From contig NZ_JAJEWI010000008.1 in assembly GCF_020687785.1 (NCBI RefSeq), forward strand, positions 186,001 through 250,000: a stretch of 64,000 bases of DNA, read 5' to 3'. A model generated the notes under the pieces. It did not search any database. It had not been told where the DNA came from and worked only from the letters and a program-made list of their open reading frames with translations. Below, one piece after another: positions 5,647-13,240 of this stretch. Positions within the stretch are counted from its first letter, which is position 1; each line of letters begins with the position of its first letter. A program made the position numbers and the translations under genes. The DNA comes from Sphingopyxis yananensis (lineage in GTDB: Bacteria; Pseudomonadota; Alphaproteobacteria; Sphingomonadales; Sphingomonadaceae).

Positions 5647-5881
5647 GGCAGTCTCCTGTTATTGTTGAATTCCTTGTGTAACTCGGCATCTAGCGGCTCA
5701 GTTGCAAGCCCTTTGGCACGCAATTTTTCCTTATACCGCCCAAATCTGGGTAAATTCGGGCAAACTGCGCTGATAAATATCGTTATTCTGGTCAGCCATT
5801 GCCGATACAGACGGGCAAAAAAGATCGGCAGCGCTGTTTTCGTCCCGATCAGGGCGGGATCGCAAACGCCGCAAGCCATGA

Positions 5882-7402
5882 TCACCCTACTCCCGCCGCG
5901 GCCAAATGCTGGGCCGCCCGCCGCAAATCAGCGGCGAACATCGCGCGTTCTTCCGCCGCTTTTTCTTTGTCCGGCAGGCGAAGCAAATAGGATGGGTGAA
6001 TGGTTGGAAACAGCACGGCCCCATCGGATAAGGGGATGACCTGCCCGCGCAGGTCCGCCAATTTACCCTTGGGGCCCAGCACGCCGCGCAGCGCCGTCGC
6101 GCCCAATGTGATAATGAATTTCGGGCGCACCATCTGCCGTTCCAAATCCAACCACCAACGGCACTTATCAATTTCCCCCGCCGTCGGGCGTTGATGCAAA
6201 CGCATTTTTCCGCGCGGCTGGAATTTGAAATGTTTAACGGCGTTGGTCATATAAATATCGCTGCGGGTCAGGCCATTTTGGGCCATCATCTCAGTCAGCA
6301 ATTGCCCCGCTGGCCCCACAAAGGGTCGCCCCGCCAAATCTTCCTGATCGCCCGGTTGCTCGCCGACCATCATCAAGGCCGCATCCACCGGCCCCTCCCC
6401 CCGCACCGCCTGTGTGGCCGCACAATGCAAGGAACAGCGTCGGCATTGGTCCAAGCTGCGCCCCAATTGCTCTAAATTTTCCGGCGCATCCAGCCCATCC
6501 CCCGCCCCGCCCAATACATCGGCCAAGGCAGCTTGCGCATTTTTCTGCCATTTCTCGGTCCGCTTGTTCGGCGTTTGATGTTCGGCGGCCTGCATCATCG
6601 CTACCCGCTGCTCTGCGCCCGCCAACAAGGATGCGATATCCTGTGCCTCTGGCAGATTATGCCAATATTTCTTGGGCATCTCCGACCGCATGGCACTGAT
6701 CTTGACCCGCGCCGGATTGAATATCGCGCCATAATAAGCGCGCCATTGCTGTTCCACCACATCATGGTCCGGCACATCGTCCCGCTGGCCGCCCTCCCCC
6801 ATGACCAGCCGTTGCCCGTCCCAAATGGCCCGCGCATCCGGCGTGATAATGGCCCAATTCATGCCCGAAAAGCGCCGCTGGAAAAAAGGCGCACCCAACC
6901 GCAAGGTCAAATGTTCCGGTTCAAACCATGCAGCGTAATTTTCCCGCCCATCATCACCCACACCCAAATGGCGAAAGCGCACAAAGGCGTGCATTTTGTG
7001 AATATCGCGGCTGATGTTTTTGACCATCTTCCGCGCCCAATGGACATCATCGTCCGTCTTGCGGCCCAGCAAATATCGGTCTGCTTGCACCCGCCAGAAC
7101 AGACGATAGAGACGCGCTGGAACATCGGCGCTGCGGTGGCAGATAATATGATCCGCCATATCGACCAACTCACGGGGCAAGGAGATGGTGGGCGCGCGCC
7201 CTTCCGCTTTCTCCTGCCTTATCGGCGCCGCCCCAAGTTGATCACCGAACAAGCTCATATCATTATCCGGCCCGCGCCAATCCACTTGGTGCGGGGGAAT
7301 ATGCTGCGCCAACAGGTGCCGCGCTGCCGCCCGCCACTCGGCAAAATCTCCCTTTTTATCCAAACGAACAACCGTCATCGCAGCGGGCTCAAGGTCGGTC
7401 AT
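5882..7402 (-). CDS. udgX: UdgX-type uracil-DNA glycosylase fused to DUF4130 domain
   Basis: A 506 aa two-domain protein. The N-terminal half (about 1-280) is the DUF4130 / radical-SAM-linked domain (QVDWRGPDNDMSLFG). The C-terminal half is a family 4-like uracil-DNA glycosylase. It has iron-sulfur cysteines in CRRCSLHC, the UdgX signature GEQPGDQED near 347-355, the UdgX loop GKMRLHQRP whose His (about 403) corresponds to the residue that bonds covalently to DNA at excised uracil, and TIHPSYLLR near 469. Canonical UdgX has KRRIH in the loop; here it is KMRLH. The ATG at 7402 lies 15 bp after the radical SAM gene, so the pair is one operon under the LexA box at 8690-8704. Confidence 0.93.
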   Translation of the reverse strand: MTDLEPAAMTVVRLDKKGDFAEWRAAARHLLAQHIPPHQVDWRGPDNDMSLFGDQLGAAPIRQEKAEGRAPTISLPRELVDMADHIICHRSADVPARLYRLFWRVQADRYLLGRKTDDDVHWARKMVKNISRDIHKMHAFVRFRHLGVGDDGRENYAAWFEPEHLTLRLGAPFFQRRFSGMNWAIITPDARAIWDGQRLVMGEGGQRDDVPDHDVVEQQWRAYYGAIFNPARVKISAMRSEMPKKYWHNLPEAQDIASLLAGAEQRVAMMQAAEHQTPNKRTEKWQKNAQAALADVLGGAGDGLDAPENLEQLGRSLDQCRRCSLHCAATQAVRGEGPVDAALMMVGEQPGDQEDLAGRPFVGPAGQLLTEMMAQNGLTRSDIYMTNAVKHFKFQPRGKMRLHQRPTAGEIDKCRWWLDLERQMVRPKFIITLGATALRGVLGPKGKLADLRGQVIPLSDGAVLFPTIHPSYLLRLPDKEKAAEERAMFAADLRRAAQHLAAAGVG

Positions 7403-7417
7403 ATCTCTGCCCTCCGC

Positions 7418-8668
7418 TTATAATGCCAAAGATAATTGCTCGGGCGGCGGAGCAAAGCGGGCGCGCAGATGTTCGCTGTCCGTCAAGCCGCCCGGCCGCC
7501 AATCCCCCGCAACGATAAAGGGCAGCAATTTTTTAACCGATGTCGTGACCCGCGCCAAATCCGCCAAGCGCAAACGGGTTCCGCGCCGCGCCGCCAATAT
7601 TCGCTCCACTGCTCTTGTGCCAAGGCCCGGTACGCGCAACAGCAATTCCTTCGGCGCACGGTTCACATCAACGGGAAACAAGTCGCGCCGTTGCAGCGCC
7701 CATGCCAATTTGGGGTCAATCGCCAAATCCAGCATCTCGTCGGACGCCCCTTCCATAATCTCGGTCTGATCAAAGCCGTAAAAGCGCATCAACCAATCCG
7801 CCTGATAGAGTCGATGTTCGCGCATCAAGGGTGGGCGCACCAACGGCAGATCCTGACTGCTATCGGCAATCGGGCTGAAGGCGGAATAATAAACCCGCTT
7901 CAAACGATAGCCGGAATATAAATGACTGGATGTTTTCAAAATATCACCGTCCCGCGCATCATCCGCGCCGACGATCATCTGGGTTGATTGCCCAGCGGGG
8001 GCAAAGCGCGGCGGCTTGGCCTTGGTGAGCAACCGCCCTTTGCGGGCCTCCTTTGCGTCCTCTTGGCGCAAGCGCACTTCCGCCATGGTTTTGCGGATCA
8101 CTTCTGGCCGTTTTTCGGGCGCGAAATTTTGCAAGCCGCGTTCGGTGGGCAATTCCACATTGGTGGACAAGCGATCGGCATAAAGGCCCGCCAACGCCAG
8201 CAATTGTGGGTCAGCCCCAGCAATGGTTTTCAAATGAATATAACCGCGAAAGCCATGATCCTCACGCAGGCTGCGCGCCACCGCGATCATTTGTTCCATC
8301 GTATAATCTTCGGACCTGATGATGCCCGACGACAAAAACAGACCCTCAATATAATTGCGCTTGTAAAAATCCAATGTGATTTGAACAACTTCAGCGGGTG
8401 AAAATCGCGCCCGTTCCACATTGCTGGACGCCCGATTGATACAAAAGCGGCAGTCGTAAATACAAAAATTGGTCAGCAAAATCTTCAGCAAAGACACACA
8501 TCGGCCGTCGGGGGTATAGCTGTGACAAATGCCCATCCCTTCCGTGGACCCAATACCGCCCGATGCAAGCGAATTGCGCTTGGATGTGCCCGACGATGAG
8601 CAACTGGCGTCATATTTGGCGGCGTCGGCAAGCAATTTCAGCTTTTGTAAGATCGTCTGTTGGGCCAT
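7418..8668 (-). CDS. Radical SAM protein linked to UdgX (putative DNA repair/modification)
   Basis: A 416 aa radical SAM protein of the family consistently found beside UDG/DUF4130 genes. The [4Fe-4S]-SAM cluster motif is CIYDCRFC (CxxxCxxC), preceded by a conserved GICHSYTPDGRC block with further cysteines. The C-terminal part contains a helix-hairpin-helix-like segment (VPGLGTRAVERILAARRG), suggesting DNA binding. The reaction is not established for the family. The ATG at 8668 is 22 bp downstream of an exact LexA box, so expression should rise after DNA damage. Confident of the family, not of a function. Confidence 0.9.
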   Translation of the reverse strand: MAQQTILQKLKLLADAAKYDASCSSSGTSKRNSLASGGIGSTEGMGICHSYTPDGRCVSLLKILLTNFCIYDCRFCINRASSNVERARFSPAEVVQITLDFYKRNYIEGLFLSSGIIRSEDYTMEQMIAVARSLREDHGFRGYIHLKTIAGADPQLLALAGLYADRLSTNVELPTERGLQNFAPEKRPEVIRKTMAEVRLRQEDAKEARKGRLLTKAKPPRFAPAGQSTQMIVGADDARDGDILKTSSHLYSGYRLKRVYYSAFSPIADSSQDLPLVRPPLMREHRLYQADWLMRFYGFDQTEIMEGASDEMLDLAIDPKLAWALQRRDLFPVDVNRAPKELLLRVPGLGTRAVERILAARRGTRLRLADLARVTTSVKKLLPFIVAGDWRPGGLTDSEHLRARFAPPPEQLSLAL

Positions 8669-8689
8669 GAAATGACCTCAGCACAAGTC

Positions 8690-8704
8690 GAACAAAAAGT
8701 GAAC
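8690..8704 (-). promoter_or_regulatory. LexA (SOS) box
   Basis: On the minus strand the bases read GTTCACTTTTTGTTC, an exact match to the alphaproteobacterial LexA consensus GTTC-N7-GTTC. It ends 22 nt before the ATG of the radical SAM gene, and a TATAA-like AT-rich stretch lies immediately further upstream. The position fits repression of the radical SAM-udgX operon. Confidence 0.85.
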
Positions 8705-8774
8705 ATATTTTATAATCGGCTCATCGCATCGTCAGGCTTCTGCGCCGAAAACCATGCTGCGAGCTAGGCCATTC

Positions 8775-10247
8775 CTAAGCCGTTTCCCGCCAACGGGCTG
8801 GCAAATATACGTCGCAAATCAAACCGCCACTGTCCCAGCTTCGTTCAATCCGGCCACCCAGATTGTTGCGGACGCTGCGCTCCATCAGCAATGTTCCAAA
8901 TCGCGTGCGCTCCGGTGGACCGATCGGATTGCCCAAACCGCTCTCCGTCCATCGCAAATGGAACATTCGCTCACCATCCGCATCATTTTCATGCCCCCAA
9001 TGGACCGTCACCTCCCCGCTGTCATACATAAGGGCGCCATGCTTGACCGCATTGGTCGCCAATTCATTGATCAGCAACGCCATTGAAACCAAGGCATTTT
9101 CTGGCAAATCCAAATCAAGGCCCGACCATTTAATGCGTGGAAATCCGGCCTCTACTTCGCGCATAAGAGCATGCATCGAACCGGTCATGAAATTCGCGCT
9201 CAACAACACATTTTGGGCCCGGTTCAACGCTTCTAAACGGTGTGTAATCCGTTCATAATAATCATCAATATTTTCCGCAGACTGGCGGGTTAATGATACG
9301 ATAGCGCCGACGGTCGCGAACAAATTGCGCATACGATGATGCAATTCGCGCATCAATAAAGTGGAATGTTCCTGCCGATTCTTTTGATCCGTGATATCCG
9401 CGTTGATGCCGATCAAAAAATCTTGGTTGTTCAGCACATCCCAGTCGCTTTTCGCTGCCAACCAGCGCACCCCGCGTTCTGGGTTGACCACCCGAAACTC
9501 GATCTGAAGCGGGGTTTTATGTTGGGTGGCATATAATAAAGCGGCACGCACATTTTCTTGGTCTTCGGGGTGAATACGCTGGATGACATCCGCGCTGGTC
9601 TGTAATTCCTCGACCGCGCCCGCCCCCCATATTTCCTCAACCGCGCCGCTCAGCAGCGCACGGTCGTTGACAGGGTCCAATTGCCACATCACCATTTCGG
9701 AAAAATCCACCGCCCGTTCCAAGAATAGACGGGATTCATCGCGCTGTCTGGCCATGCGATGCAAATTGGCTTCGTTGATGATAATGGCGGCGAAATCTTT
9801 CAGCCGGTCAACCTCGCGTTCCGTCAACGGAGCCCGCGGTTCAGCGCTGAGGATGCACAAGGTGCCAAGAATGATACCCTCGCTGGTGCGCAGCGGAACA
9901 CCCGCATAGAAACGAACCGCCTGTGGATCATCGCCAGCCAAACTCGCGAATCGGGGGTCCTGTCGAATGTCCGGCACGACCAAGGCGCTATCGCTCTCGA
10001 CAATATGGTTGCAAATCGCCGCTTCCCGCGCGGCGACGGGCGATGCTAGGCCGGTTTCATCGTGAAACCATTGATATTCTGCATCGATCAAAGAGATAAA
10101 GGCTTTGGGAACGTCAAATATTTCAGCGACCAATCTGGTAATCCGCCCATAGCTGGGTTCGGACGATGGGGACAAAAAGCCATAGTCGCGCAAGGCCTCA
10201 GCTCGCGCGGCACTTTTCACCTCAACCTGTCCAAAATGGCCGAACAC
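8775..10247 (-). CDS. HWE-family sensor histidine kinase (GAF-PAS), likely PhyR kinase
   Basis: Soluble sensor kinase of about 490 aa with no membrane segment. A GAF domain occupies roughly residues 25-160 (AICNHIVESDSALVVPDIRQ), a PAS/PAC domain about 175-290, then the HWE dimerisation/phosphoacceptor box RELHHRMRN (His near 303) and an ATPase domain with ELATNAVKHGAL and the WxE-type HLRWTESG. The frame opens at a TTG at 10271 and has no suitable ATG. GTG 10247 has GGAG 5 nt upstream and is my choice; GTG 10220 is possible. It is divergent from phyR, which makes PhyR its probable target. Confidence 0.88.
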   Translation of the reverse strand: MFGHFGQVEVKSAARAEALRDYGFLSPSSEPSYGRITRLVAEIFDVPKAFISLIDAEYQWFHDETGLASPVAAREAAICNHIVESDSALVVPDIRQDPRFASLAGDDPQAVRFYAGVPLRTSEGIILGTLCILSAEPRAPLTEREVDRLKDFAAIIINEANLHRMARQRDESRLFLERAVDFSEMVMWQLDPVNDRALLSGAVEEIWGAGAVEELQTSADVIQRIHPEDQENVRAALLYATQHKTPLQIEFRVVNPERGVRWLAAKSDWDVLNNQDFLIGINADITDQKNRQEHSTLLMRELHHRMRNLFATVGAIVSLTRQSAENIDDYYERITHRLEALNRAQNVLLSANFMTGSMHALMREVEAGFPRIKWSGLDLDLPENALVSMALLINELATNAVKHGALMYDSGEVTVHWGHENDADGERMFHLRWTESGLGNPIGPPERTRFGTLLMERSVRNNLGGRIERSWDSGGLICDVYLPARWRETA

Positions 10248-10540
10248 CAATTCTCCAACCTTCCGTCGCAACCTGCCGCTAAACTTTGCCTATGCGCCGA
10301 ATTGCGCGAAACATGATGGTCATTTTGATGTCATATTAAGCAGCAAATCCTATCATTCCACTTCAAATATTTTGCATTTCTATATTCGCTATATTCATCA
10401 ACTGCGGTGGCCCTTTTATAAGGACCAAACTCCAAGCTGCTCCCTTGGTGATCCCACATGTGCCGCGCCGCCGTTCCTCTAACGCTTCAAACGGCGCGAT
10501 GTTTCCGCAAAACAAATGTTTTTTTACATGGCGCGAATGC

Positions 10541-10566
10541 GGAACAAAAAATCGCGTTTAATCGTT
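10541..10566 (+). promoter_or_regulatory. EcfG-type promoter of phyR
   Basis: GGAAC at 10541-10545 and CGTT at 10563-10566 with a 17 bp spacer match the general stress sigma factor consensus GGAAC-N16/17-CGTT. The element ends 22 bp before the phyR ATG, consistent with autoregulation. The rest of the 10272-10588 intergenic stretch is AT-rich and shows no gene, only likely promoter sequence for the divergent kinase. Confidence 0.82.
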
Positions 10567-10588
10567 GCTACAAGGACGGGAGGGTCAG

Positions 10589-11380
10589 ATGTCTTTGAGC
10601 GAACAAATCCGACAATATTTGCCGTTGCTGCGGCGCTATGCGCGGGCGCTGACCGGCAGCCAAAGCCATGGCGACGCCATTGTGCGTATGACCCTTGAAG
10701 CCATTGTGGCGGCCCCCAACGAATTTTCCAGCCATTATGGAACGCGGGTCAGCCTCTATCGCTATTTCCATCGCATTTGGAGCAGCGCCAATTTGCCCGA
10801 TATCGATCTGGATATGGAAGAAGACCCCTATGTGCGCGATGCGCATCGCCGCTTATCCATCGCAACATCATCCGGACGGCAGGTTTTGCTGTTGAATGCG
10901 CTGGAAGGTTTTACCTTAAGCGAAACGGCGATGATCATGGACTGCGCGCGTGATGATGTCGAAATGTGGCTGCGCGAAACTATTGCCGAGGTGGATCGGG
11001 AATCCCGCACATCGGTGTTGATCATCGAAGACGAACCATTAATTGCCATGGAATTGGAACGCATCGTGACCAGCTTGGGCCATCATGTGTCTGGTATCGC
11101 AACCACATTGAGCGATGCTGTCACCGCCTTTGCCCGGTCCGATGCCTCTTTGGTCTTGGCTGATATACAATTGGCCGATGGGTCCTCGGGTATTGACGCG
11201 GTTCAGGAAATTTTGGCGATCGCGCCGGTTCCGATTGTCTTTATCACGGCATATCCCGAACAATTGCTGACGGGCAGCCGCACAGAGCCGTCTTTTCTGA
11301 TCGCCAAACCTTTTCATGAAAATAGCGTTCGGGCCGCCATCAGCCAAAGCCTATATTTCGACACATTGCTGGCAGCTTGA
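10589..11380 (+). CDS. phyR: PhyR, general stress response anti-anti-sigma regulator
   Basis: 263 aa with the diagnostic PhyR architecture: an EcfG-like sigma2/sigma4 pseudo-sigma domain (about 1-135) fused to a C-terminal receiver (about 142-260). The receiver has the acidic pair in IIEDEP, phosphoacceptor Asp192 in LVLADIQL, Thr220 and Lys240. When phosphorylated, the sigma-like domain captures NepR and frees EcfG. The ATG at 10589 has a strong GGGAGGG Shine-Dalgarno; an upstream in-frame TTG at 10565 falls inside the promoter and is unlikely. Likely phosphorylated by the divergent HWE kinase. Confidence 0.96.
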   Translation: MSLSEQIRQYLPLLRRYARALTGSQSHGDAIVRMTLEAIVAAPNEFSSHYGTRVSLYRYFHRIWSSANLPDIDLDMEEDPYVRDAHRRLSIATSSGRQVLLLNALEGFTLSETAMIMDCARDDVEMWLRETIAEVDRESRTSVLIIEDEPLIAMELERIVTSLGHHVSGIATTLSDAVTAFARSDASLVLADIQLADGSSGIDAVQEILAIAPVPIVFITAYPEQLLTGSRTEPSFLIAKPFHENSVRAAISQSLYFDTLLAA

Positions 11381-11438
11381 GCTAGGCCTGCGCAAACATA
11401 AGCCAGCCCGAAACCCCATTCATGGGATGTAATGCAGG

Positions 11439-12032
11439 TTATTTGCGCGCCATTTGCGCGCCGCCGGTCAATTCGTTCACACTGTCCATAATGGCACCAA
11501 AGGCTTCGCTTGACGCCAGTTGGTCTTCGCTACGTAGCGGCATTGCGCCGCCTTCCAAAATCGCCTGCAATGCTGTCCGCGCCCGCGACACGCGGCTTTT
11601 CATCGTTCCCACGGCGCAATCGCAAATCTCTGCGGCTTCCTCATAGGATAATTGCCCCGCGCCAATCAGCACCAACGCCTCGCGCTGGTCGATGGGCAGC
11701 ATCAGCAAGGCCCGCTGCACATCGCCCAAATGCAAGCTATCATCCTGATCATCCGGTGCGACCAACAACCGTTCGGCGGCTTGCTCGTCATATTCGCCCG
11801 TGAATTTCCGGCGCCGAACCTGTGATAAAAAGCAATTGCGCAAAATCACAAAGGCCCAGCTTTTCATGGTCGCGGGCCCGGGAATATAGGTTTCACGGGC
11901 ATTCCATGCTTTCAACATGGTTTCTTGCACCAAATCGTCAGCCATGTCGGGATTACCGCATAGGCTTCGCCCAAAAGCGCGCAAATGTGGCAGCATCGCC
12001 GCCAATTGGCGTTTGAATTCTTGGCTATCCAT
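11439..12032 (-). CDS. EcfG-family sigma factor (second paralogue)
   Basis: 197 aa ECF sigma factor. Region 2 is about residues 10-80 (LRAFGRSLCGNPDMADDLVQ, then SWAFVILRNCFLSQVRR), and region 4 about 105-160 (LPIDQREALVLIGAGQLSYEEAAEI, GTMKSRVSRAR). Close relationship to the EcfG encoded at 12596 is plain, including the C-terminal AIMDSV block typical of the EcfG class. It lies between phyR and nepR on the opposite strand, with no EcfG-type promoter visible upstream, so it may respond to a different cue. ATG start at 12032. Confidence 0.92.
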   Translation of the reverse strand: MDSQEFKRQLAAMLPHLRAFGRSLCGNPDMADDLVQETMLKAWNARETYIPGPATMKSWAFVILRNCFLSQVRRRKFTGEYDEQAAERLLVAPDDQDDSLHLGDVQRALLMLPIDQREALVLIGAGQLSYEEAAEICDCAVGTMKSRVSRARTALQAILEGGAMPLRSEDQLASSEAFGAIMDSVNELTGGAQMARK

Positions 12033-12262
12033 TGGCTGGCCCGTTACGTTGCTGATAAAATACCCTTTGCAGATTTCCGATCAACCTACCGTAGAAGTAA
12101 CGCGGCCCATCGAAACTGCAAGCGATAAGCCAAATTAACCGGAACAGCGGTTGGCCATCAGCATGCCTGCCCATGCGCCACCATGCGCCTGCGGCGATTT
12201 AACAATTTATTCCCAACATGATCCATCTGCTGTGCAACTGGTCGCAACAGCTACTGCGGCAG

Positions 12263-12287
12263 GGAACCACCGCCCTCGCTTGTCGTT
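12263..12287 (+). promoter_or_regulatory. EcfG-type promoter of nepR-ecfG
   Basis: GGAAC (12263-12267), a 16 bp spacer, then CGTT (12284-12287), matching GGAAC-N16/17-CGTT. CGTT ends only 9 bp before the nepR ATG at 12297, so the transcript would have almost no leader if that ATG is used. Confidence 0.8.
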
Positions 12288-12296
12288 GAAGAAGGC

Positions 12297-12587
12297 ATGA
12301 CTATGTGCGGCGACAGCGAAATGAAGATGAAATCCCTGCAAGACCAAATCCACAACGGCATGATCCAAAATCAGCCCAACCGCGCGCTTTCGCCGCGTCG
12401 GTCGGCCAATTTTGGCGAAATTAATCCGTCGTCGCAAATGGGGGACCATTGGCATCGCAGCCTGACGGGGCGGCAATCCCCCGAACCCGTCAGCGAAAAA
12501 CTCAAGCTGATCTATGGCCGCGTGATTTCTGAAAAGCTGCCGCAAGACATGCTGGACTTATTGTCCGAACTCGAAACGAAAAGTTAA
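12297..12587 (+). CDS. nepR: NepR, anti-sigma factor of EcfG
   Basis: 96 aa anti-sigma factor that holds EcfG inactive until phosphorylated PhyR binds it. The conserved NepR core is the C-terminal helix pair, about residues 67-92 (LKLIYGRVISEKLPQDMLDL). The N-terminal 60 residues are low-complexity and probably disordered. The start at 12297 follows a GAAGAAGG stretch. Internal ATGs at 12303, 12318 and 12324 are alternatives because the predicted promoter sits so close. It lies 8 bp upstream of ecfG in the same operon. Confidence 0.92.
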   Translation: MTMCGDSEMKMKSLQDQIHNGMIQNQPNRALSPRRSANFGEINPSSQMGDHWHRSLTGRQSPEPVSEKLKLIYGRVISEKLPQDMLDLLSELETKS

Positions 12588-12595
12588 GAAAACTA

Positions 12596-13240
12596 ATGCC
12601 AAATGACACAGCCGAACAAACGGGCGATCCTGAAAACACCCAATTGTCGGATGATGAATTCCGGCATTTGCTGGGCAGCGTCATTCCGCATCTGCGCGCT
12701 TATGGCCGCAGCTTGTCGGGAAATCCTGATTTGGCGGATGATCTGACACAAGACACGATGGTGAAAGCATGGGCATCTCGTGATCGCTTCGAACGCGGCA
12801 CCTCGATCAAGGCATGGACCTTTGTCATTTTACGCAACACATTCCTGTCCCAAATGCGGCGTAACAAGTTTCGCGGCGAATATGATGAAGCATCGGTGGA
12901 GCGCACCTTATCATCGCCCGCTTCCCAAGAAGGGACCAGCGAAATGGCCGATTTGCAGCGCGCCCTGATGGAATTGCCACAGGACCAGCGCGAGGCGCTG
13001 ATTCTCGTTGGCGCAGGGGGCATGTCCTATGATGACGCCGCGATTATCTGCAATTGCGCGTTGGGCACCATGAAAAGCCGTGTATCACGAGCGCGCACGG
13101 CGTTGGAGCAAATCATGGAACGGGGCGAGTTTAAACAAACCCGCGCCGAGTCCATTCCCGCGACCGAGGCGCTGGACGCCATTATGGACAGCGTAGAAAC
13201 CATCACCGCGCGGCGCGAAGCGGATAATCTGCCCCGTTAA
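12596..13240 (+). CDS. ecfG: EcfG, general stress response sigma factor
   Basis: 214 aa ECF sigma factor directing RNA polymerase to GGAAC-N16/17-CGTT promoters. Region 2 covers about 22-95 (LRAYGRSLSGNPDLADDLTQ, AWTFVILRNTFLSQMRRNKF) and region 4 about 125-180 (LPQDQREALILVGAGGMSYDDAA, GTMKSRVSRAR). It carries the EcfG C-terminal block DAIMDSV. Its position right behind nepR marks it as the principal EcfG, with the protein at 11439 as the paralogue. ATG at 12596, 8 bp after the nepR stop. Confidence 0.95.
   Translation: MPNDTAEQTGDPENTQLSDDEFRHLLGSVIPHLRAYGRSLSGNPDLADDLTQDTMVKAWASRDRFERGTSIKAWTFVILRNTFLSQMRRNKFRGEYDEASVERTLSSPASQEGTSEMADLQRALMELPQDQREALILVGAGGMSYDDAAIICNCALGTMKSRVSRARTALEQIMERGEFKQTRAESIPATEALDAIMDSVETITARREADNLPR

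Follow-up and report, generated by a model that had tools for sequence, protein, structure and literature searches.

A putative LexA-controlled operon for a radical SAM protein and DUF4130, with UdgX as an optional module, in Sphingopyxis yananensis

With which protein does the radical SAM (S-adenosylmethionine) enzyme encoded beside UdgX work, and are the two genes part of the SOS response? The locus that raises these questions lies in a 64-kb window of the 3.2-Mb genome of Sphingopyxis yananensis (positions 186,001 to 250,000 of contig NZ_JAJEWI010000008.1; coordinates below are those of the window, meaning this whole stretch). A sequence-only reading had described a radical SAM gene and udgX, 15 bp apart, behind an exact LexA box, and had proposed that the two proteins act together on a lesion or a covalent DNA-protein adduct. 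The open reading frame (ORF) ends bear out the spacing: the radical SAM ORF (8668–7418, (-) strand, 416 aa) is followed after a 15-nt gap by a second ORF on the same strand (7402–5882, 506 aa). The operon is real, and from its sequence it is very likely under SOS control, a form of control already known in kind. The second gene does carry a UdgX domain, as had been read, but it encodes a DUF4130-UdgX fusion whose DUF4130 part had been missed, and genome comparisons strongly support DUF4130 as the regular partner of the radical SAM protein, with UdgX optional.

The LexA-type box before the radical SAM gene

The direct-repeat box GTTCACTTTTTGTTC (8690–8704, (-) strand) is, as first read, an exact match to GTTC-N7-GTTC and the only one in the window, where 1.08 would be expected by chance. 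Exactly 21 bases separate it from the ATG of the radical SAM gene; the distance of 22 nt given earlier holds if one counts to the A of the ATG (the 22nd base after the box), not for the intervening bases. A sigma-70 scan of 5700–9000 returned three promoter-like sites versus a shuffle mean of 2.0 (sd 1.7), one of which (8735–8707, (-) strand) ends immediately before the box.

Is the box kept before orthologous genes? We searched the 150 bp before each radical SAM start on both strands for the exact pattern, using at most the 30 best loci per search; 12 matches (L108–L119), none over the family cut-off and all but the first far below it, were left out of the count. The box was present in 74 of 77 alphaproteobacterial loci, our own included: 29 of 29 in the same genus (28/28 others), 32 of 32 in other genera of the family, and 13 of 16 in other families. 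The three misses have a spacer of 6 (L031), one mismatch (L092), and nothing seen (L097). Five shuffled half-sites and other spacers, used as controls, gave 0–2 hits per group. Among 80 loci with an organism in the title, a set that shares genomes with the first so that the counts are not additive, the box was found in 65 of 66 alphaproteobacteria and in none of 14 Xanthomonadales; in the 66, the control half-site CGTT occurred four times, another once, and the remaining five not at all. Because the box is conserved in position before orthologous genes while controls stay at 0–2 per group, it is unlikely to be a chance match. This comparison across alphaproteobacteria, proposed earlier as a check, came out in favor of the box, and the damage-inducible promoter is strongly supported at the sequence level by the orthologous boxes, a weight matrix, and a LexA encoded in the same genome.

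Relative to the gene, the box of the window's genus (L032–L060) points the opposite way from that of the sampled other genera of the family (L061–L090, L093, and L096), and both orientations are present among other alphaproteobacteria. A forward-strand-only count (29/77) had made the box seem restricted to the genus; the both-strand count overturned this, as elsewhere the box lies on the other strand.

Genome-wide enrichment failed as evidence for the box: the exact pattern has 79 sites in the S. yananensis genome versus 110 for a reversed control. We then scored these 79 sites with a matrix built from 73 orthologous boxes, our own excluded. Eleven reach at least 20 bits, the radical SAM box being the 11th (20.2), and the next site has 15.1. 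Neighbors of the high-scoring sites include uvrA (10 nt), a Y-family polymerase gene (2 nt), rmuC (5 nt), and a glyoxalase-fold gene (16 nt); at three of the sites (L147, L005, and L127) the scanned neighbors had no Pfam match. The genome's own recA site is weaker (14.7 bits, 76 nt), and the lexA site scores 8.9 bits and precedes by 13 nt a 246-aa ORF located where LexA was matched; thus, the matrix separates radical SAM-type boxes well yet underrates some true-looking SOS sites. LexA itself is represented by one match (TIGR00498, 154.5 bits; cut-off 110.95). Taken together, LexA control of the promoter is strongly supported by these sequence data. Two ORFs for D12-class DNA adenine methylases (L125 and L128) have high-scoring LexA-type boxes at distances of 10 and 22 nt upstream, and another radical SAM gene (L122), of the PA0069 family, has a 29.4-bit box that falls inside the longest frame, directly ahead of a probable internal start.

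Does the box belong to UdgX or to its neighbors? In loci of the class without fused UdgX, it was exact in six of seven (L091, L094, L095, and L098–L100, from about four genera), the seventh being L092 with its one mismatch. Unfused udgX genes had it in 1 of 14 cases, a count that could miss a promoter farther upstream (14 of 15 genes, L286 being excluded because its ORF was not found; L276, L289, and L290 come from genomes with the radical SAM pair). By these counts the box tracks the radical SAM-DUF4130 pair, not UdgX.

DUF4130 as the regular partner

How regularly do the three families occur together? We surveyed 289 genomes of the class and 249 of the family with family-model cut-offs. In the class, the radical SAM protein was over cut-off in 18 genomes, DUF4130 in 18, and both in 17. 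One exception (G386) has its radical SAM match cut by a contig end; in the other (G522, C1:4828899-4829965), DUF4130 stands beside only a C-terminal radical SAM fragment, perhaps a pair in decay. In the family, 154 genomes had a strong radical SAM match (153 over cut-off), 155 had DUF4130, and 153 had both, with G213, G143, and G252 as exceptions. DUF4130 thus accompanies the radical SAM protein in 17 of 18 class genomes and 153 of 154 family genomes. UdgX was over cut-off in 24 class genomes, 10 of them with UdgX fused to DUF4130, and two pair genomes (G374 and G599) carry it unfused elsewhere. Half of the UdgX genomes (12/24) lack both the radical SAM protein and DUF4130, and 5 of the 17 pair genomes lack UdgX over cut-off, which is why UdgX appears optional. 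Joint action of the radical SAM protein and UdgX as the core function is therefore not borne out, since the pair occurs with or without UdgX.

The same partnership appears in distant lineages. At ten further TIGR03916 loci (an Acinetobacter contig, Parabacteroides, Bacteroides, Pusillibacter, Fusobacterium, and five fecal contigs), the radical SAM gene is followed by an ORF for a TIGR03915 protein that stands alone, with no UdgX fused to it, as judged by annotation, BLAST, or hidden Markov model (HMM); the downstream gene of L322 falls outside the available sequence. The record titled "Acinetobacter phage MD-2021a" (L308) looks like a bacterial chromosome, with glyS, glyQ, and an acyl-CoA dehydrogenase gene. 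In alphaproteobacteria, a fusion of the DUF4130-UdgX type follows the radical SAM gene in at least 58 of the 66 loci with an organism in the title, by a test of length and the GEQPG motif.

Is the operon under comparable control outside the alphaproteobacteria? All three betaproteobacterial loci have an Escherichia coli-type box starting 27–29 nt before the ATG (-27 in Cupriavidus). Another LexA-type motif, GAAC-N4-GTTC, occurs in four of six loci (one Clostridia plasmid and five fecal contigs), at -69 and -38 from the start used in L309 and only at -152 to -187 in L314, L320, and L322; L311 and L321 lack it. None of the scanned motifs was seen at the Bacteroides-type, Fusobacterium, or Acinetobacter loci. 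The Xanthomonadales operons carry a palindrome of their own, GTCTCA-N5-TGAGAC, exact in 7 of 14 loci and with at most one mismatch in 13 of 14 (L211, L215, L216, L218, L220, L224, L225, L242, L244, and L246 upstream of the radical SAM gene; also L297, L302, L304, and L307), against 0 of 66 in alphaproteobacteria. Four Xanthomonadales genomes hold only one to four exact sites each (control 0), some of which neighbor rmuC, a BlaI-type repressor gene, and DEAD helicase genes whose match to the Hrq1 winged helix is weak and under its cut-off; other neighbors had no Pfam match.

SOS control of the radical SAM-UdgX gene pair is not new. We take COG4277 to be the family modeled by TIGR03916. Passages of PMC8565304, which cites Erill 2016 and da Rocha 2008, describe COG1573-COG4277 as an SOS operon: it is predicted there for Bacteroidetes and said to have been reported before in Verrucomicrobia and Alphaproteobacteria. 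By description these are the same two genes under LexA regulation, so the control is already published. The difference lies in function: those passages have base excision by a uracil-DNA glycosylase (UDG), whereas here DUF4130 is the regular partner and UdgX is optional. For CAC3343-CAC3344 of Clostridium acetobutylicum, a possibly related pair, LexA control has also been proposed, in passages of PMC3828012 that mention no UdgX. A figure legend in PMC3765255 ties DUF4130 to UDGs and to radical SAM proteins resembling SplB, and a term search of PMC10776899 returned nothing on either SOS or DUF4130.

The two proteins and their surroundings

What can be said of the radical SAM protein (7418–8668, (-) strand)? 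It scores 551.9 bits to TIGR03916 (rSAM_link_UDG; cut-off 343.5), also matches PF04055, and has its CX3CX2C motif at C69/C73/C76 and a TIGR03915 partner in the next ORF, which places it in the TIGR03916 family. Three extra cysteines, C23, C48, and C57 (codon stretch 8498–8602, (-) strand), lie ahead of this motif and may hold an auxiliary iron-sulfur cluster. They are invariant in 46 of 46 aligned sequences and kept in 164 of 165 in a larger, partly redundant alignment, which draws on two overlapping loci sets with near-duplicates and omits L058 (the window protein), L107 (contig end), and L236 (897 aa by the chosen ends).

In an AlphaFold2 model of the protein (mean pLDDT 79.4), lipoyl synthase tops a tied list of fold matches. 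The auxiliary-cluster motif of lipoyl synthase is CX4CX5C; as in our protein, its three cysteines precede CX3CX2C. The radical SAM protein differs in its spacing (C23-X24-C48-X8-C57 rather than CX4CX5C) and in having a helix-hairpin-helix tail. No lipoyl synthase appeared among 21 PDB sequence matches up to an E value of 1; in NCBIfam, only TIGR03916 matched at E up to 0.001, with no match to the lipoyl synthase model or to an SplB family. Spore photoproduct lyase was absent from the 50 matches listed in each of two fold searches, an absence that is no test. The extra cysteines and the fold match together hint at a second iron-sulfur cluster. The tail (residues 333–362; 7583–7672, (-) strand), which the sequence-only reading had also named, is weakly supported: PF12836 matches with 23 bits where its cut-off is 27, and the ComEA-related structure 2duy is matched in a profile search at E 0.0057. 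Literature searches returned no established reaction for UdgX's radical SAM neighbor, nothing for UdgX together with "radical SAM", and nothing for TIGR03916. A TIGR03916-like protein on a Gemmatirosa plasmid (L316:2938-4173; 303 bits, under cut-off) lacks the N-terminal cysteines, and its gene is followed by one for a hybrid-type histidine kinase in an HMM scan.

The fusion protein (5882–7402, (-) strand) consists of DUF4130/TIGR03915 at residues 16–253 (6644–7357; 193.8 bits, cut-off 112.25) and UdgX/TIGR03914 at residues 256–495 (5918–6637; 304.5 bits, cut-off 189.95). Its UdgX domain has motif A GEQPG, the R-loop KMRLH, and motif B HPSYLLR, that is, motif B plus the Q53, R107, and H109 signature of UdgX, in which H109 of the Mycobacterium smegmatis enzyme is the covalent nucleophile, as passages of PMC10359453 set out. 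The equivalent of H109 is H403 (codon 6194–6196, (-) strand), and all 53 fused proteins in the alignment, which were preselected for GEQPG, have this residue. The sequence strongly supports a UdgX domain that carries the covalent-mechanism residues and that, in this lineage, is joined to DUF4130; the M. smegmatis protein differs in that ours is fused behind DUF4130 and shares an operon with a radical SAM gene. The DUF4130 profile had a single PDB match (E 0.62), and the fold list of the fused-protein model was filled by UdgX, so the DUF4130 fold was barely probed. GEQPG is present in 59 of 62 long downstream ORFs that contain HPS; the three exceptions all come from Paracoccus (L183, L197, and L206). 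These fusions keep an R-loop, KRRIH, and L183 passes both family models despite the missing motif.

The region just upstream of the operon (8775–10271 and 10565–13240) begins with a gene for an HWE histidine kinase, and the ORFs after it resemble, by eye only, general stress response genes of the PhyR and EcfG types.

Proposed function and its rivals

We favor, with a probability of roughly 60%, a LexA-repressed DNA-repair operon in which the radical SAM protein and DUF4130 form the working unit and UdgX is an optional module. DNA damage would lead RecA to inactivate LexA, so that both proteins are made; the radical SAM enzyme would be tethered to DNA through the helix-hairpin-helix tail and, together with DUF4130, would act on a damaged nucleotide by radical chemistry. 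UdgX, whose physiological role is described as largely unknown in passages of PMC10359453, may serve in fused lineages to target and protect: it would capture uracil sites and so bring the unit to one kind of lesion or keep it there; such a role alongside the pair is possible. The three extra cysteines probably hold a second cluster, so that the chemistry is probably unlike that of the single-cluster spore photoproduct lyase type. A bolder version, which we advance only tentatively, makes TIGR03916 a two-cluster radical SAM family (with C23, C48, and C57 binding the auxiliary cluster) and, with DUF4130, a new type of SOS-induced lesion-rewriting enzyme, radical-based and possibly sulfur-transferring, to which UdgX was added later, pinning the unit to uracil sites.

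The radical SAM protein might instead prepare or resolve the covalent UdgX-DNA adduct. The shared operon, the prevalence of the fusion after alphaproteobacterial radical SAM genes, and the Paracoccus fusion that passes both models without GEQPG all suit this idea, as does the statement in part of PMC10359453 that UdgX crosslinks to AP-DNA (DNA with abasic sites) and that resolution of the complexes is open. We nevertheless consider it quite unlikely, since five pair genomes lack UdgX over cut-off and in two others it lies elsewhere, unfused, half of the genomes with UdgX do without the pair, and pairs from other phyla show no UdgX, either fused or within the stretch displayed. The retention of the pair without UdgX also weighs against the suggestion, made for COG1573-COG4277 in a passage of PMC8565304 ("addressing ribonucleotide misincorporation"), of an SOS base-excision module in which a UDG removes residues misincorporated by SOS polymerases and the radical SAM protein is an accessory. 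UdgX, moreover, crosslinks rather than turns over, as the relevant passages of PMC10359453 have it, and the nucleophile equivalent is invariant in the aligned fusions, which makes this reading rather improbable.

We hold it similarly improbable that the pair modifies thymines or other bases of undamaged DNA and repairs no lesion. The legend in PMC3765255 does say of DUF4130 and its partners, "which might modify thymines", but LexA-type boxes of different clades at orthologous genes suit damage repair better than a standing modification. A chance origin of the box, with an operon outside SOS control, is very improbable indeed: the pattern shows no genome-wide excess and about one site is expected per 64 kb, but the position is kept across orthologs in both orientations, with controls near zero.

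For the LexA-repressed radical SAM-DUF4130 unit, these results direct experiments to the pair itself, with C23, C48, and C57 as the residues to mutate. The pairs that occur without UdgX would offer a simpler system for finding the lesion.
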